A stretch of 64,000 nt of DNA from Streptomyces sp. NBC_01754. GTDB lineage: Bacteria > Actinomycetota > Actinomycetes > Streptomycetales > Streptomycetaceae. The DNA is taken from the NCBI RefSeq assembly GCF_035918015.1, contig NZ_CP109132.1, positions 6,076,001-6,140,000 of the forward strand. Direction: 5' to 3'. Both the position numbers and the translations under genes were made by a program. The notes under the pieces were generated by a model. The model was not told the origin of the DNA and did no database searches. It saw only the letters and a list, made by a program, of their open reading frames with translations. Below are positions 22,794-39,247 of the stretch, one piece after another; within the stretch, counting starts at the first letter, position 1; the number at the start of each line of letters is the position of its first letter.

Positions 22794-25112
22794 ATGGCAA
22801 CAACGCCGTACGCAGAGACCGCCGGAACCCGGCCCCGGGTCCGCCGCGACGTCCTGTTCACCGAGACGCCCGACGGGGTGATCTTCCACAACGCCGACGG
22901 AGGCTTCCGGCTCACCGCCAAGTCCGGCTACCGGTTCGCCACCCTGCTGATCCCGCACCTGGACGGCAGCAGGACCGTCGACGAGATCTGCCAGGGCTTC
23001 GGTGAGCGCCGGAGAACCATGGTGGGCGAACTCGTGAAGGCGCTCTACGCGCGTGGCTTCGCCCGCCCCGTACCCGGCCCCGCCGATTCCGCCGGGGCCC
23101 TCGTGACCGCACCGGCCGCAGCCGCCCGCTTCGACCGCCAGATCGCCTACGTCGACCACTACGCCGACGACGCCGACGCCCGGTTCGCCCGCTTCCGCGC
23201 CACCCGGGTCGCCGTCCTCGGCGACGGCCAGGTGGCCCGCTGGTGCGTGCTGTCCCTGATACGGAACGGCTGCGCGGCCGTGGGCGTGGAACCGGCCCTG
23301 GCGGACGGCTCCGGCGGCGTCCCGCCCGAGGAGTTCGCGGCGGTCCACCAGGAGGCCGCAGCCCTGGCCGGGCAGGACTGCCCCGTGGAGCTCGCGGTCC
23401 TGCCGGAGCGGTCCTCCGCCGCCCGCCCGGCGGGCTGGGCGGCCTACGAGGGGTACGACTTCGTCCTCGCCGCCTCCGGCCCCGGTGCCCCCGGCACCGT
23501 GCTGCCGCTGCTGCGGGAGGGCGTCCCGGACGGCCGGACGCTGCTGCCGGCCTGGACGTTCGGCGGCCGGGCCGTCGTCGGCCCGGTGATGACGGCGGAC
23601 TCGACGGGCTGCTGGTCCTGCGCCGCCCTGCGGCTGGGCGCGTCCGGCGGCCCGGCGGACGCGGCGGCGGCCGACCTGTGGAGCGGGCTGGCCCTGGGCA
23701 CCGGCACCTCCGGGGCGCAGCCGTCGGGCCCGCTCGCCGCGATGCTCGGCAACCTGCTCGGGTACGAGGTGTTCCGGCTCGTCACCGGGGCTCTGCCGGC
23801 CGAGACCCGGGGGCAGTTGCTCATCCAGGACGCGGCCTCCTTCGACGTGGCCTCGGAACACCTGCTGCCGCACCCCCGGTGCCCGTTCTGCGCCGCGGGC
23901 GCACCGGAAACGGAACCGGTGGACCTGGCCGCCGCCCCCGCGCGCCCGGTGTTCCTGCCGACGGTCGCCACCGCCCCCGACGACGACGCCGCCCAGGGCC
24001 CGCTCGCCGAGCTGGAGCGCCGCTCCGCGCTCGTCCGCCCGCACGCGGGGGTCTTCACCCGGTACGCGGACGAACCGTTGACGCAGACACCGCTGAAGGT
24101 CGGCGCCGTCGTCCTCGGCCTGGGGCCCGGAGGCCCGCGGACCGTCACCGCCTTCGACGTCCACCACACCGCCGGGGCCAGGCTGCGGGCCCTGAACGTC
24201 GCCGCCACCGTCTACGCCGAACACGTCGCCCCCCGCGCGGACGCGGCGGACGCCGGAGTCCTCGCCGGTGTGCCCGCCGTCGACCCGGAGGCGCTCACCG
24301 TCGCCTCGGGCACCGGCGGCACCGGCGCGGGCCCGGTCTGGACCCTGGCCACCTCGCTCGTCACCAAGGAAGCGGTACGGGTGCCCGCAGGTGCCGTACG
24401 CCCCTTCGGCGCGGACAACGGCGACCGCCGCTTCGAACCGACCCGGGCCGGTGCGGGCGCGGGCGCGGATCTGCCGGAGGCGGCGGCCGCCGGTCTGCTC
24501 TCGGCCCTCGCCCACGACGCCCTGCGCCGGGCCGTCCGGGGCGACGGCGACGTGCGGGCGATCGCGCCCGCGGTCTTCGGCGCCGACCCCGAGACGACGT
24601 TCCTGCTGCGGTCCGCCGCCCACCTCGGCGTCCGTGTGCAACTGCTGGACCTCGGGGAACGCTCGCACTCGGGCGCCTCCGTGGTCCTGGCCAGGACGGA
24701 GAGCGCCAGGACGGAGAGCGCCAGGACGGAGACCGCCGGGGCCACGGAGGCCCACGGTCCCGCCCGCTGGGCCGTGGGCGCCGCCCTGGACCTCACGGCC
24801 GCCGCCGTGGACGCCGTACGCGATCTGCTCGGCGCGGCCCAACTGGCCGCCGAGGACTCCGGGTCCGCCGGGGCCGCCCCCGACACCGGCGACCCGCTGC
24901 TGCGTGATCTGGACGCCGCACTGGTCCCGGTCACCCGCCCCGAGCCGGCCGAGGGCCCCGGGGCACCCGTCGACTGGGTCCGCGTCCTGGAACGCCTCGC
25001 CGCCGATGGACGGGACGCCCTGGTGGTGCCCACGCACGGTGCCGACCTGCCCGCCGCGGGCATCCACACCGTGCGCGTCCTGCTCACCCGGGCGGTCACC
25101 GATGCGCGCTGA
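22794..25112 (+). CDS. RiPP leader-binding ThiF/E1-like cyclodehydratase partner
   Basis: This 772-residue protein has three parts. Residues about 15-92 look like an RRE winged helix (LFTETPDGVIFHNADGGFRL, SRTVDEICQGFG) that would bind the precursor leader. Residues about 125-370 form an E1/ThiF-like Rossmann domain with VAVLGDGQVARWCV and the zinc tetra-Cys motif CWSC (273-276) and CPFC (363-366). Residues about 400-772 resemble a YcaO fold in outline (ALNVAATVYAEH, AAGLLSALAHDALRRAV) but lack the SNG and ERDAF nucleotide-site motifs kept by the two true YcaO proteins nearby. It probably presents the substrate to YcaO. It overlaps the next gene by 11 bp. Confidence 0.83.
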   Translation: MATTPYAETAGTRPRVRRDVLFTETPDGVIFHNADGGFRLTAKSGYRFATLLIPHLDGSRTVDEICQGFGERRRTMVGELVKALYARGFARPVPGPADSAGALVTAPAAAARFDRQIAYVDHYADDADARFARFRATRVAVLGDGQVARWCVLSLIRNGCAAVGVEPALADGSGGVPPEEFAAVHQEAAALAGQDCPVELAVLPERSSAARPAGWAAYEGYDFVLAASGPGAPGTVLPLLREGVPDGRTLLPAWTFGGRAVVGPVMTADSTGCWSCAALRLGASGGPADAAAADLWSGLALGTGTSGAQPSGPLAAMLGNLLGYEVFRLVTGALPAETRGQLLIQDAASFDVASEHLLPHPRCPFCAAGAPETEPVDLAAAPARPVFLPTVATAPDDDAAQGPLAELERRSALVRPHAGVFTRYADEPLTQTPLKVGAVVLGLGPGGPRTVTAFDVHHTAGARLRALNVAATVYAEHVAPRADAADAGVLAGVPAVDPEALTVASGTGGTGAGPVWTLATSLVTKEAVRVPAGAVRPFGADNGDRRFEPTRAGAGAGADLPEAAAAGLLSALAHDALRRAVRGDGDVRAIAPAVFGADPETTFLLRSAAHLGVRVQLLDLGERSHSGASVVLARTESARTESARTETAGATEAHGPARWAVGAALDLTAAAVDAVRDLLGAAQLAAEDSGSAGAAPDTGDPLLRDLDAALVPVTRPEPAEGPGAPVDWVRVLERLAADGRDALVVPTHGADLPAAGIHTVRVLLTRAVTDAR
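24690..24734 (+). repeat. Three 15-bp in-frame repeats in the ThiF-like gene
   Basis: Three copies of a 15-bp unit (GCCAGGACGGAGAGC, the last with one change) encode Ala-Arg-Thr-Glu-Ser repeats in the C-terminal part of the leader-binding protein. They add a short charged linker in a poorly conserved place. They are likely slippage-prone and of no catalytic importance. Confidence 0.75.
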
Positions 25113-27030
25113 GCCCACGGTCCGGCCGGGGACAGCCACCGCCCGGCCCCCCGCGCGGGCCGGGTCCGCCCGCCGGTTCGCCGACACCCTGCGTGACGCG
25201 CTCGACGAGGTCCTGGCCGGTGCCCAGGGCCCCACCGTGACGGTCGCGCCCCTCGGCGTCCGCGACGCCTACACGTACGACCCCGCCGCCCCCGCCCCCG
25301 GTGCCCACGTCCCCGTCCATCTGTACGGCCGTCAGGTGCTGGTCGGGCCGTGGCCCGACGGCGGACGGTCCACCGGGTGCGGGACCTGCCTGGAGCGGCG
25401 GTGGCAGGGGGTACGCACGGTATCCCTGCGGGACGGACTCGAACGCGGCTCCGGCACCCGGTCGGTGGGGGACTGGCCCTACGCCACACCGTTCGCCGCC
25501 ACCGCGGCCGCCGCACTGCTCGCGGGGCTCGCGGGCCGGGAGCCGGCCCCCGGTCCGTACCCCCGGGTGCACCTGCTGGACCTGGACGCCATGACCGTAC
25601 GCAGTCACCCCCTCGTCCCCGACCCGGAGTGCCCCGCCTGCGGAGCGCCCGAGCCGGACACCGCCGAGGCGGCGGCGCTCACCCCGGAGCCCGCGCCGAA
25701 GTACCGGCCGGGTGCCTTCCGGGTACGCCGCATCGAGGACTACCGGCTGCCCGTGGACGCCTTCGCCAACCCGCACTGGGGGGCGCTCGGGCCCTCCGTC
25801 ATCTGCGACGTCGCCTCCACCACCACCTCCGCCACCGTGGGCTGCTTCTCCACCCGCTCCGGGGAGTACCTGCGTGAGACCTTCTGGGGCGGCCACGCCG
25901 GCCGGTACGCGCACAGCCTGGGCATCGGAGTCCTGGAAGGGCTGGAGCGGTACGCCGGGATGCGTGCCCGGGGGAAGGCCACCGGCCTCACCGCCTCGCT
26001 CGACGACCTCGGCCCGGACGCCGTCGACCCGCGCGAAACCGGCCTGTACGCCGAGGAGTTCCACCGGGACAACCCGCGGGTGCGGCCCTTCACCCCGGAC
26101 CGGCCGATCCCCTGGGTGTGGGGCTGGTCCCTCCGCGACGCGAAGCCCCGCCCGGTGCCCGAGATCCTCGGCTACTACCACGCACCCGGTCTGGAGAACC
26201 GGTTCGTGCAGGAGAGCTCCAACGGCTGCGCCTCCGGGGGCAGCTGGGTGGAGGCCGCCTACTTCGGCCTGATGGAGGTCGTCGAACGGGACGCCTTCCT
26301 GCTCGCCTGGTACGGCCGGATGCCGCTGCGGGAGATCGACCCGGCGACCAGCGCCCGCCCCTCCACCCGGTACATGGCCGACCGGCTGGCCATGTACGGC
26401 TACCGGGCCCGCTTCTTCGACACCCGGATCGGCTTCCCCGTCCCCGTCGTCACCGCCGTCGCCGAACGCTTCGACGGCGGCACCGGCCGGATGTGCTTCG
26501 GGGCGGGAGCGGGCCTCGACCCCGAGTCGGCACTGGACTCGGCGCTCTGCGAGATCGCCACCGACGCGGTCAACCTCGTCGGCCGGACCCGCCGCGACGA
26601 AGCCCGGCTGCGGGCCATGGCCGAGGACTTCGACAAGGTCACCACCCTCCACGACCACCCGCTGGTCTACGGGATCCCGGAGATGGGCCGGCACGCCGAC
26701 TTCCTGCTGCGGCAGCCGGACCCGCGCCCGCCGCTGAGCGTGGCCGACCTCTGCTGGCCGGACGCCGAGGGCGCGCCCGCCGCCACGGACCTGCGCGAGG
26801 ACCTGCTGCGCGCGGTGGGCGCCGTCACCGCGGCCGGGTTCGACGTGGTCGTCGTCGACCAGACCCTGCCCGAACAGCGCGCCCTCGGCCTGCACACGGT
26901 GAAGGTGCTGGTGCCCGGCCTGCTTCCCATCGACTTCGGCTGGTCCCGGCAGCGCGCCCGCCACATGCCCAGGATGCGTACCACGCTGACCGCCGCCGGC
27001 CTCAACCCCGCCCCGCACCCGTTCCCGTGA
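25102..27030 (+). CDS. YcaO cyclodehydratase (first copy)
   Basis: This 642-residue enzyme has an N-terminal E1-like remnant with a tetra-Cys zinc motif (CGTC 93-96, CPAC 177-180) and a YcaO domain from about residue 225. The ATP-site segments LEGLERYAG, SNGCASGG (373-380) and EVVERDAF (392-399) are all present. The C-terminus is PAPHPFP, matching the Pro-rich tail that YcaO cyclodehydratases need. It would activate backbone amides with ATP and close Cys/Ser/Thr side chains into azolines. The ATG at 25102 overlaps the preceding gene; the next gene starts 44 bp downstream. It aligns in layout with the second copy at 35599. Confidence 0.9.
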   Translation: MRAEPTVRPGTATARPPARAGSARRFADTLRDALDEVLAGAQGPTVTVAPLGVRDAYTYDPAAPAPGAHVPVHLYGRQVLVGPWPDGGRSTGCGTCLERRWQGVRTVSLRDGLERGSGTRSVGDWPYATPFAATAAAALLAGLAGREPAPGPYPRVHLLDLDAMTVRSHPLVPDPECPACGAPEPDTAEAAALTPEPAPKYRPGAFRVRRIEDYRLPVDAFANPHWGALGPSVICDVASTTTSATVGCFSTRSGEYLRETFWGGHAGRYAHSLGIGVLEGLERYAGMRARGKATGLTASLDDLGPDAVDPRETGLYAEEFHRDNPRVRPFTPDRPIPWVWGWSLRDAKPRPVPEILGYYHAPGLENRFVQESSNGCASGGSWVEAAYFGLMEVVERDAFLLAWYGRMPLREIDPATSARPSTRYMADRLAMYGYRARFFDTRIGFPVPVVTAVAERFDGGTGRMCFGAGAGLDPESALDSALCEIATDAVNLVGRTRRDEARLRAMAEDFDKVTTLHDHPLVYGIPEMGRHADFLLRQPDPRPPLSVADLCWPDAEGAPAATDLREDLLRAVGAVTAAGFDVVVVDQTLPEQRALGLHTVKVLVPGLLPIDFGWSRQRARHMPRMRTTLTAAGLNPAPHPFP

Positions 27031-27074: not shown

Positions 27075-28685
27075 ATGGGGTACGCCCACGAGTACGCCGA
27101 CGCCGTCCTGCACCGGGGCCGCGTCCCGATGGAACCCGCCGACTTCGTCCCCGACTGGGCCGACGCCCCGCGCAAGGGGAAGTTCTACCCGGGCGTGGAG
27201 CCCTACGCCCTGCCGGACGGCGACGACCGGGCGGACGCCCCGGTGGCGCGCGGTCTCCTGCCCCCGGACGGCACACCGTACGACGGCCGGTTCACCCTGC
27301 CGCTGCTGGCGGCGATGCTCAAGGACTCCTACGGGCTGACCGGCCGCCGCCTGGGCATCCAGGCCAACAGCGACCTCGCCGGCCTTCCCTTCCACACCCA
27401 CGCCAACTGGTCCCGGGGGACCGCGGGCGGCGGCGGGCTCTACCCGGTCAGCATCTACTGGGCGTCCGGCCCGTCCGGCCCGCTCACCCCCGGTATCCAC
27501 CACTACGACGTCCACCGGCACGCCGTGCAGCGGCTGCTCACCGGGGACGTCACCGACCGGGTCCGCGAGGCACTGGGCCCGCTGGCGCCCGCCGAGGCGC
27601 TGGAGACCGACCAGTACCTGGTCCTGGGCGTCAAGTACTGGCAGAACACCTTCAAGTACAACAGCTTCTCCTACCACGTGGTCTGTACCGACCTGGGCAC
27701 CGTCGTGCAGACCTGGAAGATCTGGGCCGCCGCGCGCGGTCTGCGCACGGCACCGGTGCTGTGGTTCGACGAGCCCCGGCTGAACGGGCTGCTCGGCACC
27801 ACCGGTACCGAGGAGGCCGTCTTCGCCGTCGTCCCGCTGCGCTGGGAGGGCGGCCACGGCGGTCCGCCGCGCACCGGCGGCACGAGCGGTACCCCCGATC
27901 CGGCGGTCCGCCACCGCGACGCCGAACGCTCCCGCACCGTCCTGGAGTTCCCGACGGTCCGGGCCATGCACGCGGCGACCACCGAACGCGCGGCGGAGCG
28001 CCCCGCGCCCGGCGCCCTCGCCCCGGCCGCCGCCCTGCCCGCCCCCGCCGGAGGCACCAGGGTCCCGCTGCCCGCCCCCGCCTTCCCCGGGACGCCCGTA
28101 CGCCGGGTGCTGCGCGAACGGCGCAGCAGCTTCGGCCGCTTCGACGCGGCCCGCCCGGTCACGCCGGCCCAGCTGTCGGCGGTCCTCGCGGCCTGCGCGG
28201 CGACGACCCTGGACAGTGACGCGGACCCGGCCGGCACCGTCCGGCTCGCCCGCCTGTACGCCTTCGTCAACCACGTGGAGGGCGTCGAGCCGGGGGCGTA
28301 CGCCTACGACCCGGACGACGGCGCACTGCGGCTCGTGGAACCCGGAGCACCGGGGGCCTTCCTCCAGGACACCTATTTCCTGGCCAACTACAACCTGGAG
28401 CAGGCCGGTGCCGTGCTCGTGCCGACCGTCCGGACCACGGCGGTCCTGGACGCGGTGGGGGACCGGGGCTACCGGCTCGCCGTCGGCACAGCGGGCGCCG
28501 TGGCCCAGACGTTCTACGTGGCGGCGGCCGCGCTGGAGCTGGGCGCGGGCGTGGCCCTGGGATTCGACAACATCGCGCACATCGAGAAGCTCGGCCTGGG
28601 CGACGGCGACGAGGCGCCCCTGCTGATCATGCCGCTCGGCAACGAACGCCCCCGGCCCGCCGACTTCCGCCACGAGATCGCCTGA
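27075..28685 (+). CDS. SagB-type FMN dehydrogenase
   Basis: This 536-residue protein has two nitroreductase-like halves. The N-terminal half contains NWSRGTAGGGGLYPVSIYWA and KYWQNTFKYNSFSYHVV. The C-terminal half contains LRERRSSFGRFDAARPVTPAQ, then LGAGVALGFDN near the end. These fit the SagB/ThcOx family, which uses FMN to oxidise azolines to aromatic thiazoles and oxazoles. The ATG at 27075 has AAGGGGG about 9 bases upstream. It lies between the first YcaO and the LanB gene in the same operon. The doubled length is usual for actinobacterial members. Confidence 0.88.
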   Translation: MGYAHEYADAVLHRGRVPMEPADFVPDWADAPRKGKFYPGVEPYALPDGDDRADAPVARGLLPPDGTPYDGRFTLPLLAAMLKDSYGLTGRRLGIQANSDLAGLPFHTHANWSRGTAGGGGLYPVSIYWASGPSGPLTPGIHHYDVHRHAVQRLLTGDVTDRVREALGPLAPAEALETDQYLVLGVKYWQNTFKYNSFSYHVVCTDLGTVVQTWKIWAAARGLRTAPVLWFDEPRLNGLLGTTGTEEAVFAVVPLRWEGGHGGPPRTGGTSGTPDPAVRHRDAERSRTVLEFPTVRAMHAATTERAAERPAPGALAPAAALPAPAGGTRVPLPAPAFPGTPVRRVLRERRSSFGRFDAARPVTPAQLSAVLAACAATTLDSDADPAGTVRLARLYAFVNHVEGVEPGAYAYDPDDGALRLVEPGAPGAFLQDTYFLANYNLEQAGAVLVPTVRTTAVLDAVGDRGYRLAVGTAGAVAQTFYVAAAALELGAGVALGFDNIAHIEKLGLGDGDEAPLLIMPLGNERPRPADFRHEIA

Positions 28686-28700
28686 CCGGGGAGACCTGTG

Positions 28701-31466
28701 ATGACCCTGATGACATCCGACACCGCCCCGCGCCGCTCCGTCCGGTGGGAACCGGGCCGGCGATTCCTGCTCCGCGCCGCCGGACTGCCCGTGGAGGCCG
28801 TCCACGGACTGCGCTGTGCCCGCACCCGGGAGTGGGCCGACCGGGTCCTGGCCCAGGAAGCACACCTCACCGAGGGGGGCGCCGCCCTCAGCGACCTGCT
28901 GCACGGGCTGGTCGAATCCGCCGACGCGGCCGGCGGCGCAGCCCGCCGGGCCCTGCTCACCCTGCGCCGCCAGGTGTACAACAACCGTCTGCCCGCCGAC
29001 CCCGGGGCCGCCGTACGCCTGGTGGGCGGCCTGGACGAGGCCGCCGGGGCACGGACCTCGGCATGGCTGGAGGACCGGGCCCGCCACGGACGGCTCCTGG
29101 CGGAGGGGCCGGCGCTGCTCGCCGGGGAACTGGCAGCGGCACGGGGTGAGTTGCGTCGCGTCCTGTCCCACGAACGGCTCCGGCTGGGACTGCTCCTGGC
29201 CTCGCCGACCCTCGACGGGCGGCTCGACGGCTATCTGCGCGACACCTCGCCCGACCCGGGCAAGCGGATGCGGAAGATCGAACGGTCCGCGCTCACCTAC
29301 CTCTACCGCACCGCCTGCAAGACCAGCCCCTTCAGCACCCTCACCGCCGTCGCGACCGGCACCTTCGACGGCGCCCCGGCCCAGGACCCGGCCGCCCTGC
29401 GGGTCGGCGAGGACTGGGCGAGTCACGTCCGGCTCAACGTGGTCGCCCTGGGGCGGCTGGCCGACCTGATCCTGGCGGATCCGGTGCGGCGCCAGGACCT
29501 CCCCGTCGTCCTGTCCCCGGGATGGGGGCGCGACGAGGACCGCATCCGCTACGTCAGGCAGTGGGTGACCGCGGGCGACGACAGCGCGGCCGTCACCTTC
29601 GACGCCGTACGCGACCGGCTGTTCTACCTCCGCACCAGCGGCACCCTGGACCGCCTCCTCGCCTTCTTCGGCGGCCAGGGCACCCCGCGCCACCGCGACC
29701 TCGTCGACCGGCTGGAGGCCGAGCACGGTTCCGACCGCGCCGAGTGCGAGCGGTACGCCGCCGCGCTGATCCAGCTCGGGATGGTCCAGGTGCCCTCGCT
29801 GCGCACCGACGTGCACAGCCCCGATCCGCTGGGCTCCTTCCAGGAGGCCCTGCGTGCCCTGCGGGTCCCGTGGGCCGACACCGTGGCCGCCGCCCTGGAC
29901 GGCCCGGCCGGCTGCCTGGCCGCGTACCCGGCCGCCGGACTCACCGAGCGGCGGGCCCTGCTGCACACCCTGCGCGAACAACTCCTCGACGTGCAGCGGG
30001 AGCTGGGCGCCGAGCAGCCGGCCCTCCCGCGGACCCTGCTGTACGAGGACGTCAGCGCCGCCGACGGCCTGGTCTGCCCGGGCGATCCGCTGGGCGGCGC
30101 GACGGGCCGCGCCCTGCGGGCGGTCGAGGGCGTCCTCCCCCTGTTCGACGTCACCCTGCCCCAGCGCATCACCCTGCACGGCTTCTTCCTGGCCCGGTAC
30201 GGCCGCGGCGGGCGCTGCGAGGACCTCCTCGGCCTGGTGCACGACTTCCACGAGGACTTCTTCGACCAGTACGTCTCCTTCACCTCCACACGCACGGCCT
30301 TCGACGCGGACGGCCGCTACGTGCCGGAGGAGAACTGGCTCGGGCAGAGCGCTCTGAGGACCCTGGACGACGCGCGGCGCCACTTCACGGCCGGGATGAA
30401 CCGGCTGTGGGAGGAGCACGGCACGGCCGAGGAGATCCGGCTGCCGGGCGAACTCCTCACCTCCGTCGCCGCCCGACTGGGCCCCCCGGCCGCCGACTTC
30501 ACCCCGCAGAGCCACCACATCCAGATCGCACGCCCCGGCCCCGGCCACCCGGGACGGCCGCTCGTCGTCCTGAACCGCTCCTACGGCGGACTCGCCTTCC
30601 CCTTCAGCCGCTTCACCCACGTGTACGACGCCCAGGCCGGTGAGGGGCCCGGACTCTCCGAGCGGCTGCGGGACGAACTGCGCGACCGGCAGCCGCAGGG
30701 CGCCGTCTTCGCCGAGCTGACGGGAGGCCAGATCACCAGCAACCTCAACCTCCACGGCCGGCTGACCGACTACCAGATCGTCTGCCCCGGCGAGACCGCC
30801 ACCGTCCCGGAGGCCGGCCGCCTCGACCTCGACGACCTGTACCTGGAACACGAGGAGGACACCGACCGCCTCGTCCTGCGCTCACGCCGGCTGGGCCGCG
30901 AGGTCGTCCCCGTCTACCTCGGCTACCTCGTCCCGGTGGCCCTGCCGGAGATCCCCCGCACCCTGCTGCTCCTCTCCCCGAGCACCATGACACCCACCGA
31001 CATCTGGGGAGGCGTCCCCGAGGGCCCGGCCGTGGACGGCGTCACCCGCCGGCCGCGCGTGCTCCACGGCGACGTCGTGATCAGCCGGCGCGGCTGGACG
31101 GCGGCCGCCGCCGCGCTCCCCGTCCGCGAGCCCGGGACCGGCGAGGCCCACCGGTACCTGGAGTGGCAGCGCTGGCGCCGTACCCACGGGCTGCCCGGCC
31201 AGGTCTTCGCCACGGTGCTCCGCGACGGCCGCCGGGCGCCGGGCGCCAAGCCCCTGTACGTGGACTTCGACAGCCCCCTGTCGCTGACCGCCTTCGACGC
31301 TTTGGTGGACCGCGAACCGGGCACCACCGTGGTCCTGCGCGAGATGCTCCCGGCCGAGGACGGGCTGCACCTCACTTCCGACCAGGGCCACCACGTGGCC
31401 GAACTGGCCGTGGAGACCTTCACCTCACGCCCCCGCACCGAGGACGGCCCGACATGCCGGAACTGA
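28701..31466 (+). CDS. LanB-type dehydratase, tRNA-dependent glutamylation domain
   Basis: This 921-residue protein has the LanB N-terminal domain throughout, with RKIERSALTYLYRTACKTSP (around residue 190) and the late motif KPLYVDFDSPLSLTAFDALV. In class I lanthipeptides, thiopeptides and goadsporin this domain transfers glutamate from Glu-tRNA to Ser/Thr side chains. A separate SpaB_C domain then eliminates it to give Dha/Dhb. That partner follows with a 13-bp overlap. I chose ATG 28701 over the GTG three bases earlier because the GGGGAG site is then 7 bases away. No elimination domain is fused at the C-terminus, so the dehydratase is split. Confidence 0.9.
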   Translation: MTLMTSDTAPRRSVRWEPGRRFLLRAAGLPVEAVHGLRCARTREWADRVLAQEAHLTEGGAALSDLLHGLVESADAAGGAARRALLTLRRQVYNNRLPADPGAAVRLVGGLDEAAGARTSAWLEDRARHGRLLAEGPALLAGELAAARGELRRVLSHERLRLGLLLASPTLDGRLDGYLRDTSPDPGKRMRKIERSALTYLYRTACKTSPFSTLTAVATGTFDGAPAQDPAALRVGEDWASHVRLNVVALGRLADLILADPVRRQDLPVVLSPGWGRDEDRIRYVRQWVTAGDDSAAVTFDAVRDRLFYLRTSGTLDRLLAFFGGQGTPRHRDLVDRLEAEHGSDRAECERYAAALIQLGMVQVPSLRTDVHSPDPLGSFQEALRALRVPWADTVAAALDGPAGCLAAYPAAGLTERRALLHTLREQLLDVQRELGAEQPALPRTLLYEDVSAADGLVCPGDPLGGATGRALRAVEGVLPLFDVTLPQRITLHGFFLARYGRGGRCEDLLGLVHDFHEDFFDQYVSFTSTRTAFDADGRYVPEENWLGQSALRTLDDARRHFTAGMNRLWEEHGTAEEIRLPGELLTSVAARLGPPAADFTPQSHHIQIARPGPGHPGRPLVVLNRSYGGLAFPFSRFTHVYDAQAGEGPGLSERLRDELRDRQPQGAVFAELTGGQITSNLNLHGRLTDYQIVCPGETATVPEAGRLDLDDLYLEHEEDTDRLVLRSRRLGREVVPVYLGYLVPVALPEIPRTLLLLSPSTMTPTDIWGGVPEGPAVDGVTRRPRVLHGDVVISRRGWTAAAAALPVREPGTGEAHRYLEWQRWRRTHGLPGQVFATVLRDGRRAPGAKPLYVDFDSPLSLTAFDALVDREPGTTVVLREMLPAEDGLHLTSDQGHHVAELAVETFTSRPRTEDGPTCRN

Positions 31467-32596
31467 TCTCATCGCACCCCGCCCACCCGGACGCCACGAC
31501 GGCGGGACCGGGGGAGTGGATCGCCCTGCACATCTTCTACGCCGCCAGCCCCCGGCCGATGCTGGTCGACTGCGTCCGCCCCCTGGTGGACCGGCTCACC
31601 GGGGAAGGGCTGCTGGCCGGCCACTTCTTCATCAACTACTGGCTGGAGGGCCCGCACGTCCGGCTCCGGCTGCGCCCCGCGACCCCTGCCGCCGCGCCCG
31701 AGGTCAGACGCCGAGCCGAGGAGGCGCTCACCGCGTTCCTCCGCGCCCGCCCCGCCCTGTACGAGGTCGACGCGGGTTTCCTGAAGGACTTCTACAACGC
31801 CCTGTTCGACATCGAGTTCCCCGGCGAGGACCGGGACCGGTACATGGGCGGGGACGGCCGGATGAACCTGCGGCCGAACAACTCCTTCCACGAGCAGCCC
31901 TACGCCCCCGAGTACGCCAAGTACGGCGGCCCCGCCGGGGTGGCCCTGGCCGAATGGCACTTCAGGCACTCCAGCGACCTGGTCATGGACGCCTTCCGCA
32001 CCATGAACCTGCACCTGCGCACCGTGCTGCTGGGCACCTCCGCCCAGCTGATGATGGTGATGGCGAGCTGCTTCCTGCCGGACGAGGACCGCCTCGCCGA
32101 CTACCTCGACGGCTACTACGCGTTCTGGCACCAGGCCTTCCCCGGCACCGGGTTCATCGGCTCGCAGGAGTACGAGCGCAACTACGCCGAGATGGCGCCC
32201 GCCCTGGGCCGCCGGTTCGCCGAGATCCGGGCCGCCGTCGCGGCCGGCGAACTCCAGCGGCTCCCCGGCTTCCTGCGCGGCTGGGCCGCCCACTGCCTGG
32301 AGCTGCGGGCCCGCGTCGAGGACCTCACCACCCGTGGCGAGCTCGCCTTCCCCGCCTGGGAGGGGCCCGCCCGGGAGGACACCGGACAGCAGCGCGCAGA
32401 ACCGGCCCACGCCGCACCGCTGGAGACGCTCACCCATGTGCCCGCGGTGCTGCCCCGGCTGCTCTCCCCATACATGCACATGACCAACAACCGGCTGCAT
32501 GTGACGATCCGGGACGAGGCCTACCTCTCCTTCGTCCTCGGCCAGGTCCTGCGGGAGCCGGGCGGAGCGGACGGCCCGAAGGCGGCGACCGCGTGA
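31454..32596 (+). CDS. SpaB_C/thiopeptide-type biosynthesis protein
   Basis: This 380-residue protein carries the SpaB_C signature: WIALHIFYAASPRPMLVDCV, then FFINYWLEGPHVRLRLRP, and later YAKYGGPAGVALAEWHFRHS. It ends with LSPYMHMTNNRLHV. Family members act as the glutamate-elimination half of split LanB dehydratases or as pyridine-forming cycloaddition enzymes in thiopeptides. Only one copy is present here, so elimination is the safer guess; a dual role cannot be excluded. It overlaps the LanB gene by 13 bp, and its stop overlaps the GTG of the M50 gene. Confidence 0.85.
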   Translation: MPELISSHPAHPDATTAGPGEWIALHIFYAASPRPMLVDCVRPLVDRLTGEGLLAGHFFINYWLEGPHVRLRLRPATPAAAPEVRRRAEEALTAFLRARPALYEVDAGFLKDFYNALFDIEFPGEDRDRYMGGDGRMNLRPNNSFHEQPYAPEYAKYGGPAGVALAEWHFRHSSDLVMDAFRTMNLHLRTVLLGTSAQLMMVMASCFLPDEDRLADYLDGYYAFWHQAFPGTGFIGSQEYERNYAEMAPALGRRFAEIRAAVAAGELQRLPGFLRGWAAHCLELRARVEDLTTRGELAFPAWEGPAREDTGQQRAEPAHAAPLETLTHVPAVLPRLLSPYMHMTNNRLHVTIRDEAYLSFVLGQVLREPGGADGPKAATA

Positions 32597-33801
32597 CCGC
32601 CACCCCCGACGGACCCGCCCCGCCCGCGACCCCGGTGCCCGCCACCGCCACCCCCGGGCCCGCCGCCACGGCCGCCGCGCCCCCGCGCGCGGAGGCGCGC
32701 GCCTCGGCGGCCCGGGCCTACCGCCCCGCCCTGCGGGACGGCGTCCTGCTCGGCCCGCCCCTGCTGCGCGGCCCCCGCACCGTGCACCTGATACGGCACC
32801 CCGTCAACGGCACCGCGTTCGAGGTCGGCGTCAAGGAGCACTTCGTCATCTCCCGGCTCGACGGGACGAGGGACCTCGACGACATCGCGCCCGCGTACGC
32901 CGCCCGCTTCCGCCGCCGCCTCGCCGAGGACCACTGGAACCGCCTCCTCGGACTCCTCGGCGCCCGGGGCCTGCTGGCCGGCGCCCCGGACCCACCGCCC
33001 CCCGCACCCGCCGCCCCGCACCCCAACACCTTCTGGCGCGGCACCCGCCCCGCGGTCGCCGACGCGGACGCGACCACCGCGCGCCTCCACCGCGTCCTGC
33101 GCCCGCTCCTGCACCCCGCGCTCCAGCTGCCGCTGCTGGCCGCCGTGCTGGCCATGGAGGTGGCGCTGATCCTGCACGCCGGTGAACTCCTGGACGGTAC
33201 AGTGGAGTTGTTCCGGCAACCTGTGGTGCTGGCGGCGGTCGCCCTGTTCCTCTGGTTCAGCATCACCGTCCACGAACTCGCCCATGGTGTCGCGGCCCAG
33301 CACTACGGCGGCCATGTCGCCGAGATCGGGCTGCGCTGGAGATTCCCGGCCGCGATGCTCTACTGCACCGTCGACAACTACCTCTTCCTCCCGGGCCGCC
33401 GCGCCAAGCTGGTGATCGCGGGCGCGGGTGCCCACGTCAATCTGCTGCTCCTGCTGCCGTTCGCCCTCTGGTGGTACCTGCTCCCGGACGAAGACCCGGC
33501 CCGCCCCCTCCTCGCCGGCCTGCTGTTCCTCGGCAGCGTCCAAGGACTCAGCAACCTCGTGCCCCTGCCGCCGCTGGACGGCTACCGGATGCTCGGCCAC
33601 GCCCTGGGCGCCGCCCACCTCGCCCCCGAGACCCGCGCCTACCTGGCGCTGCGCCTGGGCCGGTCGGGCGCCGGGGCGACCGCCGCCTACCCGCGCCGCG
33701 CCCGGGTGATCCACACGGCGTACGGCATCGGATCGGTGCTCCTGCTCCTCCTCGCCGTGACCGGCACCTGCACCGTGGCACTCCTGCTGCTGCTCCGGTG
33801 A
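32593..33801 (+). CDS. M50 membrane metalloprotease with PqqD-like N-terminal domain
   Basis: This 402-residue protein starts with a Pro/Ala-rich tail. A stretch at about residues 60-130 (TAFEVGVKEHFVISRLDGTR, LLGLLGARGLLAG) resembles the PqqD/RRE winged helix. The membrane part contains HELAH (227-231) and NLVPLPPLDG (321-330), the zinc site of site-2-type M50 proteases. Several helices surround them. It is a candidate leader peptidase for the RiPP, with the N-terminal domain holding the leader. The GTG start overlaps the stop of the previous gene (GTGA). A role in immunity or export is an alternative. Confidence 0.83.
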   Translation: MTATPDGPAPPATPVPATATPGPAATAAAPPRAEARASAARAYRPALRDGVLLGPPLLRGPRTVHLIRHPVNGTAFEVGVKEHFVISRLDGTRDLDDIAPAYAARFRRRLAEDHWNRLLGLLGARGLLAGAPDPPPPAPAAPHPNTFWRGTRPAVADADATTARLHRVLRPLLHPALQLPLLAAVLAMEVALILHAGELLDGTVELFRQPVVLAAVALFLWFSITVHELAHGVAAQHYGGHVAEIGLRWRFPAAMLYCTVDNYLFLPGRRAKLVIAGAGAHVNLLLLLPFALWWYLLPDEDPARPLLAGLLFLGSVQGLSNLVPLPPLDGYRMLGHALGAAHLAPETRAYLALRLGRSGAGATAAYPRRARVIHTAYGIGSVLLLLLAVTGTCTVALLLLLR

Positions 33802-33845: not shown

Positions 33846-34850
33846 ATGAGTGAGGTATCGGCCATGCGCCCCACACCCGCCGACGGAACCGACCCGGCCC
33901 CCGCCGTCCGCGCCCAGGGGGTGTCCAAGCGGTACGGCGACCGGCAGGCCGTCGACGACGTGTCCCTGGACATCCACCGGGGCGAGTTCTTCGGCCTCCT
34001 GGGACCCAACGGGGCGGGCAAGTCCACCCTGGTGGAGATCATGGAGGGGCTGCGCCGGGCCGACTCGGGCTCCGTCGCCCTCTTCGGGGAGCCGCCCTGG
34101 CCGCGCAACACCGCACTGCTGCCCCGCATCGGCGTACAGACCCAGTCCTCGGCGTTCTTCGTCCGCCAGACCGCGCACGAGCACCTGCGGACCGTCGCCG
34201 CGCTCTACGGGGCCACCCGGGCCGCCGTGGACGCCACCCTGGAATCGGTGGGCCTGACCGGACAGCGCGCCGTGCAGGTGGAGAGCCTCTCCGGCGGCCA
34301 GCGCCAGCGGCTGGCCATCGCCTCCGCCCTCGTGCACGGCCCCGAGCTGATCTTCCTCGACGAGCCGACCGCCGCACTGGACCCGCAGGCCCGCCGCGCC
34401 CTGTGGGAGGTGCTCCGCGCACTCAAGGCCGAGGGCCGCACCATCGTCTACACCACGCACCACCTCGACGAGGCCGAGGCCCTCTGCGACCGCATCGCCA
34501 TCCTGGTGGACGGCAAGGTCGCGGTGACCGACTCCCCGCACAACCTCGTCGGCGCCTCCGAGGCCCCCAGCCGGCTGATGCTGCCGCTGGGCAGACTCGA
34601 CGAGGAGGCCGCGGCGGCCATCCCCGGTGTCGACCGGGTCACCGTCCAGGGCGGCTCCCTCGTCCTGGAGACCCACACGGCCGGGCAGGTGCTCGGCGCC
34701 GTCGACCGGATCACCGGACTGGACGGCGTACAGACACGCACCGCCAGCCTCGAAGACGTCTACCTCGACCTGACCGCCCGGCTCACCAGTGCCCCGCAGT
34801 CCCCCCGACGGAACGCCGACACCGCCGACACCACGGAGCACCAGCCATGA
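33846..34850 (+). CDS. ABC transporter ATP-binding protein
   Basis: This 334-residue ATPase of the drug-resistance (DrrA-like) type has Walker A GPNGAGKST, signature LSGGQRQRLA, Walker B LIFLDEPTAALD and switch His in TTHHLDEAEAL. A C-terminal extension of about 90 residues follows. With the next gene it forms an ABC-2 exporter, likely for the mature peptide and so also for self-protection. The stop overlaps the start of the permease gene (ATGA). A second in-frame ATG eight codons downstream is possible as a start. Confidence 0.93.
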   Translation: MSEVSAMRPTPADGTDPAPAVRAQGVSKRYGDRQAVDDVSLDIHRGEFFGLLGPNGAGKSTLVEIMEGLRRADSGSVALFGEPPWPRNTALLPRIGVQTQSSAFFVRQTAHEHLRTVAALYGATRAAVDATLESVGLTGQRAVQVESLSGGQRQRLAIASALVHGPELIFLDEPTAALDPQARRALWEVLRALKAEGRTIVYTTHHLDEAEALCDRIAILVDGKVAVTDSPHNLVGASEAPSRLMLPLGRLDEEAAAAIPGVDRVTVQGGSLVLETHTAGQVLGAVDRITGLDGVQTRTASLEDVYLDLTARLTSAPQSPRRNADTADTTEHQP

Positions 34851-35602
34851 GCGCCTACGCCGCACTGACCGGGGCGGGCTACCGCGCCCAGGTCCGCGAC
34901 AAGACGACCCTCTTCTTCACCTTCGCCTTCCCCCTCCTCTTCCTCGTCGTCTTCGGCCTCATCTTCCGGGGCCAGGACGTCGAGCAGAGCGGCCTGTCCT
35001 ACCTCTCGTACACGGCCGCCGGAGTGCTGTCCTGGGGTGTGGCCAACGCCGCCGTGTTCGGTATCGCCTTCACCCTCATGCAGTGGCGCACCGACGACAT
35101 CCTGCGGCTGATCCGGATGTCCCCGGCCCCGCTCTCCGCCGTCATCGGCTCGCGGTACGTCCTCGCGCTGGCCGTCGGCGCCGTGCAGTCGCTGCTGTTC
35201 GTCGGCGTCGCGATGCTGCCGCTGTTCGGACTGCGACCCGCGTCCGGCTGGCCGCTGCTGATCCCCGTCATGGTCCTCGGCATCACCACCTTCCTGCTGC
35301 TCGGGGTGATCATCGGCTCCTTCGCCAACACCCCCGAGTCCGTCGCGGCCGTCGCCAACTTCCTGATGCTGCCCATGGCGTTCCTGTCCGGGTCCTTCTT
35401 CCCGCTCGACGCCATGCCCTCCTGGCTCCAGAAGGTCTCCCTGGTGATGCCGCTGCGGTACCTCAACGACGCGGTCTCCCACGCGCTGACCGGACGCGGC
35501 GACCTCTCCGACGTCGCGGTGGGATGCGCCGGACTCGCCGTGTTCGCCCTGGTGTTCGGCGCGGTCGCGGTCAAGACGTTCCGCTGGACGAGGTCGTCAT
35601 GA
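34847..35602 (+). CDS. ABC-2 type transporter permease
   Basis: This 251-residue protein has about six membrane helices and the ABC-2 permease pattern: a first cytoplasmic loop (YRAQVRDKTTLFFTFAFPL) and a late loop LPMAFLSGSFFPLDAMPSWL before PLRYLNDAV. It pairs with the upstream ATPase and is coupled on both sides by ATGA overlaps, including to the second YcaO gene. It should form the membrane channel of the peptide exporter. Confidence 0.92.
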   Translation: MSAYAALTGAGYRAQVRDKTTLFFTFAFPLLFLVVFGLIFRGQDVEQSGLSYLSYTAAGVLSWGVANAAVFGIAFTLMQWRTDDILRLIRMSPAPLSAVIGSRYVLALAVGAVQSLLFVGVAMLPLFGLRPASGWPLLIPVMVLGITTFLLLGVIIGSFANTPESVAAVANFLMLPMAFLSGSFFPLDAMPSWLQKVSLVMPLRYLNDAVSHALTGRGDLSDVAVGCAGLAVFALVFGAVAVKTFRWTRSS

Positions 35603-37551
35603 GCTCCCTGACGCGGCCCCTGCCGCAGCCGATGGCCCCGGCCCGCTCCGCACTCCACTCCGCGCTCGCCGACCGCCTCGGCCACACCGTCCCCGTCGTC
35701 CCGCTCGGTGCCACCGACGCCACCGACGCGCTCGGCGGCCGGGGCGCCCCGGATCCCTGGGCCGCCGAACGCCCCGGCGCCCGGGTCCACCTCACCGCCT
35801 CCGCCGTACTGATCGGCCCCTGGGGCGGCGACGGCACCCGGGCCGCCTGCGGGCGCTGCCTGGCGATGCGCTGGCAGCGGCTGCGCAGCCGCAGCGAACG
35901 CGACGCCCTGGAGACCGGCGGCCCGGACGGCCCCCGCCCGGCGGGGGAGTGGCCGCCGCTCACCGACTACACCTACGACACGGTCGCCGCCCTCTGCGCC
36001 GCGCTGCTGGACGGGGCCCGCCCCGAACCGCCCGCCACCGACCCCGCCGACCGGGACCTCCCACAGGTCACCCGCCTCGACCTGACGACCCTCCAGGTGC
36101 GGACGTACCCCCTCCTGGCCGACCCGCTCTGCCCCGACTGCGCCCCGCCCGCCACCGCGGCGCGGCCCCGCCCCCTGACCCTCGACACGCGTCCCAAGCC
36201 CACCCCCGACACCTACCGGCTGCGCCCCGCCTCCTCGTACCCGATCCCGAAGACGGCCCTGGCCAACCCGGTCTGCGGCGCCCTCGGCGGCGGCACCTGG
36301 CTGAACGTGACCTCCCCGACCACCGCACCGGTCGCCGGAAGCGTCTTCGTACGCGGCTACGCCGGGCTCAACGACGTCACCTGGAGCGGCCAGGAGAACG
36401 CCTTCTCCACCAGCCGCACCCTGGCCTTCCTGGAGGGGCTGGAACGCTACGCAGGGACCCACCGGCGCGGCCGCACCACCCCGGTCACCGGCTCCTTCAA
36501 CGACCTCGGGGCCGACGCGCTCGACCCCGCCACCTGCGGCTTCTACGACCCGCGCACCTACCGCGACGACCCGCTGGTCGACCCCTTCGACCCCGACCGT
36601 GCCATCCCCTGGGAGTGGGGCTGGTCCCTGCGCGACGACCGCCCCGTACTGGTCCCGTCCCGCCTCGTCTACTACAGCGCCGGACTGGCCGCCGACAACT
36701 TCGTCTTCGAGTGCTCCAACGGCTGCGCCATCGGCGGCTGCCTGGAGGAGGCGGTCCTCGGCGGCCTCCTCGAACTCGTCGAGCGCGACGCCTTCCTCAA
36801 CGCCTGGTACGGCAACGCCCGCCTCACCGAGATCGACCTGGCGACCGTCGGCGGCACCACCGCCGCCGCGATGGCCGAACGAGCCGCGCTCCAGGGCTAC
36901 GACGTCCACGTCCTGGACAACCGCATCGACCTGGCCGTCCCCGTCGTCACCGCGCTCGCCGTACGCCGCGACGGCGGCCCCGGCACCCTCTCCTTCGCGG
37001 CGGCCGCCTCGCTGGACCCGCTCGGCGCGGTCGAGGGCGCCCTGTCGGAGGTACTCACCTACATCCCCCACCTCTCCCGCCAGACGGAGGAACGCCGCGC
37101 CGAACTGGAGGCCATGGCCGACGACTTCTTCCAGGTCCGCCACCTCAAGGACCACGCCCAGCTCTACGGTCTGCCCAGGATGGCCGCCCATGCGCGCAGC
37201 TACCTGGAACCCCTGTCCGTACGCCCCCTGGAGAGCGTCTACCGGGACTGGGAGGCCACCGGCCGCCCCCGCACCGGCGACCTGCGCGACGACGTCCTGG
37301 CGGTCACCGGCGCACTGGCCGAGGCCGGCCACGACGTGATCGTCGTCGACCAGACCACCCCGGAACAGGAACACATGGGCCTGCGCACCGTCAGCACCCT
37401 GGTGCCCGGCCTCCTGCCGATCGACTTCGGCTGGAACCGCCAGCGCGCCCCGCTGATGCCCCGGCTGCGCACCGCCCTGCGCAGGGGCGGCCACCGCACC
37501 ACGGACCTGACCGACGCCGAGATCCGCAGGGTCCCGCACCCGTTCCCGTAG
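35599..37551 (+). CDS. YcaO cyclodehydratase (second copy)
   Basis: This 650-residue protein has the same design as the first YcaO: a tetra-Cys E1-like N-terminus (CGRC 84-87, CPDC 178-181) and a complete YcaO domain with LEGLERYAG, SNGCAIGG (373-380) and ELVERDAF (392-399). It ends VPHPFP. The ATP-site motifs fall at the same residue numbers as in the first copy. The two may act on different residues or positions of the core, or form a heteromer. The start overlaps the permease stop. It is the last gene before the convergent precursor, from which it is separated by a strong hairpin. Confidence 0.9.
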   Translation: MSSLTRPLPQPMAPARSALHSALADRLGHTVPVVPLGATDATDALGGRGAPDPWAAERPGARVHLTASAVLIGPWGGDGTRAACGRCLAMRWQRLRSRSERDALETGGPDGPRPAGEWPPLTDYTYDTVAALCAALLDGARPEPPATDPADRDLPQVTRLDLTTLQVRTYPLLADPLCPDCAPPATAARPRPLTLDTRPKPTPDTYRLRPASSYPIPKTALANPVCGALGGGTWLNVTSPTTAPVAGSVFVRGYAGLNDVTWSGQENAFSTSRTLAFLEGLERYAGTHRRGRTTPVTGSFNDLGADALDPATCGFYDPRTYRDDPLVDPFDPDRAIPWEWGWSLRDDRPVLVPSRLVYYSAGLAADNFVFECSNGCAIGGCLEEAVLGGLLELVERDAFLNAWYGNARLTEIDLATVGGTTAAAMAERAALQGYDVHVLDNRIDLAVPVVTALAVRRDGGPGTLSFAAAASLDPLGAVEGALSEVLTYIPHLSRQTEERRAELEAMADDFFQVRHLKDHAQLYGLPRMAAHARSYLEPLSVRPLESVYRDWEATGRPRTGDLRDDVLAVTGALAEAGHDVIVVDQTTPEQEHMGLRTVSTLVPGLLPIDFGWNRQRAPLMPRLRTALRRGGHRTTDLTDAEIRRVPHPFP

Positions 37552-37630: not shown

Positions 37631-37801
37631 TCAGGCGGAGCAGGAGGTGGTGCTGGTGGTGGAGCTGCACGTCGAGGTCGAGCTGGTGCTGGTGGAACCG
37701 GCCAGCACGACCTCGCTGGCGTCCGAGTAGTCGGAGATCTCGAACGTCTCGGCCTCCAGCTCCAGGATCTCGTCGGCGAGGGTGCTCAGGTTCTTCTCCA
37801 T
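37631..37801 (-). CDS. RiPP precursor peptide (azole/thiopeptide-like)
   Basis: This 56-residue peptide has an acidic leader (MEKNLSTLADEILELEAETF, then EISDYSDASEVVLAG). It resembles leaders of thiopeptide- and goadsporin-type precursors. The last 21 residues are 10 Ser, 8 Thr, 2 Cys (residues 45 and 54) and a final Ala. Nearly every core residue can therefore become an azole or a dehydroamino acid. A strong ribosome site, GGAGGAG, lies 6 bases upstream of the ATG. It faces the biosynthetic run and is divergent from an M20 gene. The cleavage site is not known; after the Ala-Gly at 34-35 is my guess. Confidence 0.9.
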   Translation of the reverse strand: MEKNLSTLADEILELEAETFEISDYSDASEVVLAGSTSTSSTSTCSSTTSTTSCSA

Positions 37802-37999
37802 GATGTCTCCTCCGGATCGGGGGCCGCCGGGTTCGGGGCCGCCTGCTGGGCGTACACCCAAGCGTGGGGCGTACGCCTGGTGCGGGGTACGCGCCCCATT
37901 CCACCGCCCACCGCTCACCGTTCGGCACGCCTCCCGCACACACTTCGCTGGCACGCGACGCCAGCGCCGCCCGCCGACGCCGTACCCAGGAGCCCCGAC
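37802..37999. promoter_or_regulatory. Divergent promoter region of precursor and M20 genes
   Basis: This 198-bp gap must hold the precursor promoter. Three related GTAC-centred elements occur: GGGCGTAC at 37848 and 37867, and GGGGTAC at 37884. They may be binding sites for a cluster regulator. A 7-bp inverted repeat, CGCTGGC and GCCAGCG (37946-37966, 7-nt loop), lies 33 bp before the M20 start. I cannot place convincing -10/-35 hexamers. Confidence 0.4.
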
Positions 38000-39247
38000 A
38001 TGTCCCGGAACCATCCCGCCCTGGCCCTCGCCGACGAGGCCGTCCGCCCGGCACTCACCCTCTATCTGGACGTCCACCGCACCCCGGAACTCTCCGGCGA
38101 GGAGGCCCGCACGGCCGCCCTGTTCGCCGACCGGCTGGCCGCGACGGGCTTCGACGTCGTACGCGGCATCGGCGGCCACGGAGTCGCGGGCGTCCTGCGC
38201 AACGGCGACGGCCCCCGCGTGTACCTGCGCGCCGAACTGGACGCTCTGCCCGTCGCCGAGCGCACCGGCCTCCCGTACGCCAGCGCCAACGGTGCCATGC
38301 ACGCCTGCGGCCACGACCTGCACCTGGCGGCGGCGGCCGGTACCGCGGAGCTGCTGGCCCGTACCATCGCCCACTGGCGCGGCACCCTGGTCGTCCTCGG
38401 TCAGGGCGCCGAGGAGACCCTGACGGGAGCCCGCGCGATGCTGGCGGACGGACTGTACGAGCGCTGCGGCAGACCGGACGCCGTCCTCGCCCAGCACACC
38501 GCACCGCTGCCCGCCGGAATGGTCGCCCACGGCGGCCCCCACACCCCGGTCGCCGCCGCGAGCGCCGCCCTGGGCGTGGTCCTGCACGGCCGAGGCGGCC
38601 ACGCGGCCACCCCGCACCTCACGGTGGATCCGGTGGTCACGGCGGCGGCCGTGATCAGCCGCCTCCAGACGATCACCTCCCGGGAAACGGCCCCCGCCGA
38701 GCAACTCACCCTCACCGTCGGCACCCTGAGGGCGGGCTCGGCCGTGAACGTCGTCCCGGACACGGCCGAACTGGGCATCGGGCTGCGGGCCCTCACCGAC
38801 GACTGCCTGGACCGGGCCCTGGCCGCCGTGGACCGCGTCGTACGGGCCGAGTGCGCGGCCTCCGCCTGCCCGCGCGAGCCGGAGCTGACGACCCTCTCCC
38901 GCTCCCCGGCCCTGTGGTGTGACCCGGCCGCCACCGAGGCGGTCCGCGCCGCCCACACCGCTCTCCACGGCCCCGAACGCGTCGGCACCTGGCCGCCGTC
39001 GATGGCCGCCGAGGACTTCCCCCTCTACGGCGACGCGGGTCTCGATCTACACGGCGAGCGCGGAATCCCCCTGGTCTACTGGATGTTCGGCACGGCGAGT
39101 CCGAAGCAGTGGGCCGACCACGGGGCCGCCCCGCCCCCGAACCACTCCCCGCACTTCGCCCCCGACATCCGCACGGCCCTGCCCCCGGCGATCACCTCCC
39201 TGACGGCGGCGGCCCTGGACCGGCTGGGCGGGGGAACGGGGGCGTAG
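38000..39247 (+). CDS. M20 family amidohydrolase
   Basis: This 415-residue metal-dependent hydrolase has the family blocks in order: YLDVHRTPELSGEE, YLRAELDALPVAE, ACGHDLHLAAAAG, GQGAEET and PSMAAEDFPLYG. They match IAA-amino-acid and N-acyl-amino-acid hydrolases. The usual Asp in the LRADMDALP block is Glu here. AGGAG lies about 7 bases before the ATG. It is divergent from the precursor and could trim N-acyl groups or act on a biosynthetic product. It may also be an unrelated neighbour at the right edge of the cluster. Confidence 0.85.
   Translation: MSRNHPALALADEAVRPALTLYLDVHRTPELSGEEARTAALFADRLAATGFDVVRGIGGHGVAGVLRNGDGPRVYLRAELDALPVAERTGLPYASANGAMHACGHDLHLAAAAGTAELLARTIAHWRGTLVVLGQGAEETLTGARAMLADGLYERCGRPDAVLAQHTAPLPAGMVAHGGPHTPVAAASAALGVVLHGRGGHAATPHLTVDPVVTAAAVISRLQTITSRETAPAEQLTLTVGTLRAGSAVNVVPDTAELGIGLRALTDDCLDRALAAVDRVVRAECAASACPREPELTTLSRSPALWCDPAATEAVRAAHTALHGPERVGTWPPSMAAEDFPLYGDAGLDLHGERGIPLVYWMFGTASPKQWADHGAAPPPNHSPHFAPDIRTALPPAITSLTAAALDRLGGGTGA

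Follow-up and report, generated by a model that had tools for sequence, protein, structure and literature searches.

A conserved Streptomyces gene cassette with a serine, threonine and cysteine precursor core, consistent with a linear azole- and dehydroalanine-containing peptide

Introduction

Among the ribosomally synthesized and post-translationally modified peptides (RiPPs), the linear azole-containing peptides (LAPs) are defined by the presence of azoles in the absence of macrocyclisation (PMC7136475). In goadsporin, whose core counts 19 amino acids (PMC5303826), a neighbouring serine is dehydrated only once the azoles are in place (PMC5303826, PMC4603692), the azoles at T5 and S15 being required for the dehydroalanine (Dha) at S4 and S14 (PMC5303826). 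The coryneazolisins, predicted in Corynebacterium, are outlined in PMC4603692 as combining two YcaO proteins and LanB-like dehydratases without a [4+2] enzyme, with a predicted core of 10 Cys, Ser or Thr residues, one Ile and 5-7 further Cys, Ser or Thr. Telomestatin derives from the TlsC core CTTSSSSS by means of a YcaO-type dehydratase and a flavin oxidoreductase (PMC5469769), and the dehydrazoles and carnazolamide combine azoles with Dha, the Ser that precedes an azole being dehydrated (PMC10676384). Here we analyse a 64,000-nucleotide stretch of Streptomyces sp. NBC_01754 (contig NZ_CP109132.1, positions 6,076,001 to 6,140,000), hereafter the window, in whose numbering coordinates are given, and in it a precursor peptide gene with a core made almost only of serine, threonine and cysteine, together with the cassette of genes that surrounds it. 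We favour, with moderate confidence, a linear azole- and Dha-containing peptide made by a goadsporin-like logic as its product, over a macrocyclic thiopeptide.

Results

The precursor gene (37631..37801, minus strand) is preceded by a good ribosome-binding site (ccggaggagacatcATG) and encodes a peptide of 56 amino acids, MEKNLSTLADEILELEAETFEISDYSDASEVVLAGSTSTSSTSTCSSTTSTTSCSA, with a predicted leader at 37697-37801, a predicted core at 37634-37696 and the stop codon at 37631-37633. Recounted from the translation, the last 21 residues are exactly the 10 Ser, 8 Thr, 2 Cys and one final Ala given by the initial annotation, the Cys standing at core positions 10 and 19. The first 35 residues, which are acidic and taken as the leader, are followed by STSTSSTSTCSSTTSTTSCSA, the boundary at residue 35/36 being a prediction of that annotation. 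When all six frames of the window are read, no more than two stretches, which overlap, hold at least 20 Ser, Thr or Cys per 21 residues; both lie in the precursor gene, and none of 60 first-order Markov resamples contained such a stretch. The Ser/Thr/Cys-rich stretch is not a chance feature and the precursor is a real gene. The peptide exceeds the curated cut-offs of two models, TIGR03892 (48.3 bits, cut-off 25) and NF033400 (39.1 bits, cut-off 30), both of which carry the NCBI description 'thiazolylpeptide-type bacteriocin', and 99 proteins are homologous to it at E<=0.001, many of them given that name by NCBI. A Pfam scan of the precursor gave no significant match, and PF19409, precomputed for some homologues, gave none on P0010, P0017 or P0002 when these were scanned. 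The precursor had no match by tblastn in the plasmid collection, and the promoter and terminator scan around its gene found none. In the intergenic region 37802-37999, between the precursor and an M20 amidohydrolase gene, several GTAC-centred near-repeats were seen by eye and are possibly a regulator site.

Within the genus, 65 of 392 genomes, about one in six, have a match to the precursor, and TIGR03892 matches occur in 20 of 100 genomes (the own genome and relatives) and in none of 14 control genomes. The claim that the precursor is new did not survive the search against curated models, which placed it in this NCBI family; the family is catalogued and widespread, and the novelty of the system is reduced to that extent. 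The flanks were compared at 20 TIGR03892 places besides the window, the G004 place being left out. All 11 neighbouring genes were matched by tblastn at 15 of these places, a sixteenth (G028) is interrupted by a contig end, and the other four (G003, G015, G021 and a second place in the own genome) are other clusters. The M20 amidohydrolase gene adjoins the precursor gene in each of the 15 complete cassettes. Related loci, at least 14 on named contigs, occur in genera that include Streptomyces, Kitasatospora, Actinacidiphila, Nocardioides, Catellatospora, Virgisporangium and Nocardiopsis, and divergent cassettes bear other Ser/Thr/Cys-rich cores, such as CSTSSTSSTTSSTCA (L035) and ATSTSSTSTCSTCSTTSCCA (L002).

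Some further features of the precursor genes were noticed during this survey. They stand in tandem at L036, L037 and L038, and also at G194:C68, and the tandem precursors of L037 and L038 differ in their Ser/Thr/Cys-rich cores. Two TIGR03892 matches, G015:C1:5538030 and G004:C2:4462929, contain an in-frame TGA, each with an intact match closely after it. The own genome also has a second, different thiopeptide-type cluster (G000:C1 ~4048600-4059440; L025, L065), whose precursor ends in ...GTSSSSSTCSSSTC and which encodes a YcaO protein and a LanB-C as well as a protein that resembles TbtD but is divergent (NF045556, 111.6 bits).

The plus-strand genes of the cassette, from 20.7 to 37.6 kb, head toward the precursor, the last one ending 79 bases from its stop codon in convergent orientation. 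The initial annotation, which took the peptide for a RiPP precursor encoded next to its modifying enzymes, is borne out by two YcaO proteins and a SagB-type protein, predicted for azole formation, and by a split LanB, predicted for dehydration. YcaO-A (25102..27030) and YcaO-B (35599..37551), both with predicted starts, are fused cyclodehydratases that score 290.6 and 325.7 bits, respectively, on TIGR03604 (cut-off 219.25) and 113.4 and 83.5 bits on TIGR03882 (cut-off 36.9). They share 46% identity and both have PHPFP at the C-terminus; ERDA and DFGW are among the conserved blocks, and each form retains its own blocks across the rows compared. None of the 15 complete cassettes lacks either form. 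In the YcaO tree, the 16 YcaO-A rows (the window and the 15 others) form one clade (100/99), and the YcaO-B rows do not form a single one; 12 of the 30 YcaO-A rows had been left out as the B gene of their locus, and of the 18 kept, L058 and L065 belong to other clusters. We read the pair as a probable old duplication, retained in every complete cassette. A further YcaO gene (347.5 bits) lies at G000:C1:6171857-6172858, ~32 kb past the end of the window.

The F protein, an E1/ocin-ThiF-like leader-binding protein of 772 amino acids (22794..25112, plus strand), reaches 61.4 bits on TIGR03882 (cut-off 36.9) and 65.6 bits on TIGR03693, far under the cut-off of 561.9. The azoline dehydrogenase of SagB type (27075..28685, plus strand, predicted start) consists of two nitroreductase-like halves and matches TIGR03605 (128.8 bits, cut-off 78.4) and PF00881. 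The YcaO protein, leader-binding protein and dehydrogenase of a LAP-type set are all present in the cassette. The split LanB comprises LanB-N (28698..31466, plus strand; PF04738, 135.6 bits), predicted as the glutamyl-tRNA dependent glutamylation enzyme, whose nearest solved chains are 6ec7 (E 7.3e-35) and the goadsporin protein 9jhq (E 2.1e-15), and LanB-C (31454..32596, plus strand, predicted start), which matches PF14028 (134.8 bits) and TIGR03891 (77.3 bits, over the cut-off) and which, from its sequence, probably eliminates glutamate.

The natural substitutions of the core bear on the chemistry that each residue would undergo. P0002 together with the 99 homologues makes 100 precursor proteins, of which 87 fit the 21-residue register; 85 of these, with cores of Ser, Thr, Cys, Ala and Gly only, were combined with 121 loci whose core has this composition too and agrees with the consensus at 13 or more of 21 positions. 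These loci overlap, so that the same gene is sometimes in several. The whole gave 36 distinct cores, a count outside which the divergent cassettes with other Ser/Thr/Cys cores lie. Ser and Thr column types were set by the window core (column 4 actually holds Thr in 12 cores, Cys in 11 and Ser in 13), and the inner-Ser columns are the eight that remain when Ser columns 1 and 20 are set aside. Cys occupies 1 of 288 inner-Ser cells versus 35 of 288 Thr cells; the comparison of all ten Ser columns with the Thr columns, made on cells that are not independent since the genes are related, gives p=0.0007. When five odd cores (the nine-Cys core and four from L036, L038 and L151) are removed, Cys is found in 23 of 248 Thr cells versus none of 248 inner-Ser cells and versus 11 of the 310 cells of all Ser columns (p=0.007 for the last comparison). 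Counted by columns over the 36 cores, 8 of 8 Thr columns ever hold Cys versus 3 of 10 Ser columns (p=0.004). Mutation alone would predict the opposite pattern, because the change from Ser to Cys takes one base and that from Thr to Cys takes two. The core of P0050, SCSCSSCSTCSSCCSCTSCCA, has nine Cys, of which eight fall in Thr/Cys columns and the ninth in column 20.

Ser 8, 11, 15 and 18 are invariant in all 36 cores, and Ser 3 is altered once. Within 67 distinct core DNA sequences, TCN and AGY serine codons are both used at positions 3, 5, 6, 8, 11, 12, 15, 18 and 20; a stepwise exchange between them runs via Thr or Cys, and therefore Ser is selected at the invariant positions. Judging from these codons, the amino-acid identity of the conserved core Ser is under purifying selection. 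Position 6 is Ser or Thr, and position 5 or 12 is Ala or Gly in some relatives. The notion that all internal positions can be modified agrees with the azole and dehydration enzymes encoded nearby, but it has to be narrowed at positions 5 and 12, where modification is dispensable. The simplest reading that these substitutions suggest is that Thr and Cys become azoles, most inner Ser become Dha and positions 5 and 12 are optional.

Several points weigh against a linear azole- and Dha-containing product with such a residue map. The column test is not robust, as the removal of the odd cores leaves Cys in 5 of 8 Thr columns versus 2 of 10 Ser columns (p=0.14). The map itself is inexact: Ser 11 is followed by Ser 12, the Ser columns 1 and 20 both accept Cys and so look azole-like, and Ser occurs also at Thr columns 2 and 4. 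Finally, the modelled fold of LanB-C is nearest to the pyridine synthases TbtD and PbtD.

This fold, together with the NCBI label of the precursor family and the fact that LanB-C does score on the pyridine synthase model NF045556, would also be in agreement with a true thiopeptide, in which two dehydroalanines would yield a pyridine-type ring and a macrocycle, LanB-C being, or doubling as, the cycloaddition enzyme. The lack of a PF14028 match is insufficient to rule out a pyridine synthase, because PF14028 missed the divergent TbtD-like protein at G000:C1:4057405 that NF045556 found, and the search was therefore based on NF045556. On this model LanB-C of the cassette scores 95.8 bits, under the cut-off of 325, and it is the sole NF045556 match in 8 of 13 cassette-bearing genomes of the genus that were compared (own genome excluded). 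Each of the 10 loci whose pyridine synthase passes the NF045556 cut-off has two such proteins, a neighbouring second protein having H-L-x-x-N-R and the pyridine synthase being without it, versus a single LanB-C in the cassette, which retains HMxxNR in the form HMTNNR. LanB-C falls outside the single clade (100/100) that unites the 10 pyridine synthases in the tree. By the NF045556 cut-off, the motif and the tree, no recognised pyridine synthase or macrocyclase is found in the cassette. The two YcaO proteins alone do not decide the matter, because an occasional extra fused cyclodehydratase occurs in some thiopeptide clusters (PMC4603692). Taken together, we consider a true thiopeptide rather unlikely. 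A linear poly-azole/poly-dehydro product fits the cassette because the latter is without a recognised pyridine synthase, so that this part of the initial annotation stands.

A telomestatin-like polyazole, in which almost all Ser, Thr and Cys would become azoles with little dehydration, is also unlikely, somewhat more so than the thiopeptide. It would account for the two YcaO enzymes, and the telomestatin core does bear rings from Thr and Ser (PMC5469769), but every one of the 15 complete cassettes retains the split LanB, and exchange with Cys is next to absent from the inner Ser columns, where it would take a single base change, whereas the Thr columns do show it. A silent or non-functional cluster, from which the strain would make no product, is very improbable: the regulator suggests conditional expression, but the open reading frames (ORFs) of the cassette are open and conserved, with purifying selection on the core codons across relatives. 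Thioether rings of lanthipeptide type, formed from dehydrated residues and Cys as the LanB dehydratase genes and the Cys at 10 and 19 could suggest, are the least probable of all, since no LanC-type domain was found among the cassette ORFs scanned (Pfam and NCBIfam, E<=0.001; the ABC permease lies outside the scan), the Cys positions shift and can be replaced by Ser or Thr, and two YcaO proteins and a dehydrogenase are present.

The remaining genes of the cassette would serve leader removal, export and regulation. The M50 protein (32593..33801, plus strand; PF02163, 32.2 bits, cut-off 27.2) is predicted to fuse a RiPP recognition element (RRE) to a site-2 protease and retains the HExxH and LDG motifs. 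Its model, with a predicted local distance difference test (pLDDT) score of 82.6, best matches the site-2 protease 3b4r and SpoIVFB, followed by TbiB1 and PqqD, which are RRE proteins, the E-values being weak (0.02-0.5, none <0.001), yet with probabilities of 0.98-1. On NF041824, the model of the daptide HExxH protease, it scores 100.5 bits, under the cut-off of 300. In daptides the leader is taken off by MpaP, an intramembrane peptidase that depends on an RRE (PMC10036551), and the modelled structure makes the M50 protein a probable leader peptidase of the present cassette. An ABC transporter ATPase (33846..34850, predicted start; PF00005, 104.3 bits) and an ABC-2-like membrane permease (34847..35602, predicted start), a hydrophobic ORF conserved beside the ATPase and outside the family scans, follow on the plus strand. 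On the other side of the precursor, the divergent M20 amidohydrolase gene (38000..39247, plus strand; TIGR01891, 228.5 bits, cut-off 153.75) has its predicted start at 38000 in an ORF that opens at 37880; the role we give to its product is a guess. A SARP/AfsR-type regulator (20708..22636, plus strand), with BTAD, Trans_reg_C and NB-ARC domains in the domain scans, occurs in all 15 complete cassettes. The conserved cassette holds neither an N-acetyltransferase nor a peptidase-containing ABC transporter, the ABC ATPase having no peptidase domain in Pfam. A GNAT acetyltransferase gene is located at 40869-41360 (plus strand), ~3 kb from the precursor.

Discussion

From the gene content and the core substitutions we infer a route to a linear azole- and Dha-containing peptide, of which the reactions, their order, the residue assigned to each chemistry, the cleavage site and the linearity of the product are all predicted. 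The leader would be held by the F protein while YcaO-A and YcaO-B cyclodehydrate chiefly Thr and Cys into (methyl)oxazolines and thiazolines, which the SagB-type enzyme would oxidise to azoles. Once the azoles are formed, LanB-N would load glutamate from glutamyl-tRNA onto the inner Ser, and LanB-C would eliminate it to leave Dha. The RRE-fused site-2 protease would then cut the leader at the membrane, the ABC pair would export the product and the M20 hydrolase could trim one of its ends; without the action of a pyridine synthase the chain would remain linear. The calculated [M+H]+ is 1974.775 for the unmodified core and 1774.513 for a core with ten azoles, from which every Dha would take another 18.011, giving 1594.407 for ten; retention of Gly35 would add 57.021. 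A more specific proposal is tentative, and we hold it for possible rather than expected: a fully unsaturated linear chain of alternating Dha and (methyl)oxazole or thiazole, derived solely from Ser, Thr and Cys and bearing at least 10 azoles, for which the two F-dependent YcaO enzymes would divide the work without being redundant. If true, such a chain would be a distinct structural RiPP class; it would occur in about one in six species of the genus, and its role might thus be conserved.

An almost wholly modifiable core offers a clean test of how Ser and Thr are divided between YcaO and LanB, and the natural Cys/Thr/Ser swaps, in a family that is common and a cassette that is tightly conserved, yield a prediction for each position. 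If the linear product is confirmed, a natural-product class would have been concealed by a perhaps misleading 'thiazolylpeptide' name. Six exact core strings had no occurrence in open-licence papers, and no described product tied to the precursor core was found in that literature, a weak negative given that subscription papers were outside the search. Nor was the combination of a long Ser/Thr/Cys-only core, two fused YcaO proteins, an F protein, a split LanB and an RRE-site-2 protease, without a recognised pyridine synthase, found described in the open-licence literature. The contrast drawn by the initial annotation, that characterised cores contain unmodifiable residues, was worded for three families; beyond them it meets an exception in TlsC, whose core is CTTSSSSS (PMC5469769).

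Compared with known systems, the precursor belongs over both cut-offs to the NCBI families TIGR03892 and NF033400, whose name implies a thiopeptide, whereas the enzyme set of the cassette does not back a thiopeptide. Telomestatin is similar in having a core of Ser, Thr and Cys alone, but it is an 8-residue macrocycle, and the available part of PMC5469769 mentions no LanB dehydratase. Dehydrazoles and carnazolamide rely on a LanM-type dehydratase and a long nitrile-hydratase-like leader, in contrast with the split LanB and short leader found here. The daptide protein MpaP resembles the M50 protein in the fusion of an RRE to an intramembrane site-2 protease; the pyridoxal phosphate (PLP) transaminase and the methyltransferase reported for daptides (PMC10036551) were not seen in the cassette. 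The coryneazolisins are alike in their two YcaO proteins, LanB, lack of a [4+2] enzyme and Cys/Ser/Thr-rich core, but one of their YcaO proteins is discrete and one fused, whereas both are fused in the cassette, and the core of the latter is without Ile. Goadsporin (godA-H) resembles the cassette, as far as gene content alone is considered, in its fused YcaO, SagB-type dehydrogenase, split LanB and absence of a pyridine synthase. Its core is mixed in composition. It has one YcaO protein and an N-acetyltransferase, and its ABC transporter contains a peptidase, whereas the cassette described here is distinguished by a core of Ser, Thr and Cys only (bar the final Ala), two YcaO proteins, a separate F protein, an RRE-site-2 protease and an M20 hydrolase.
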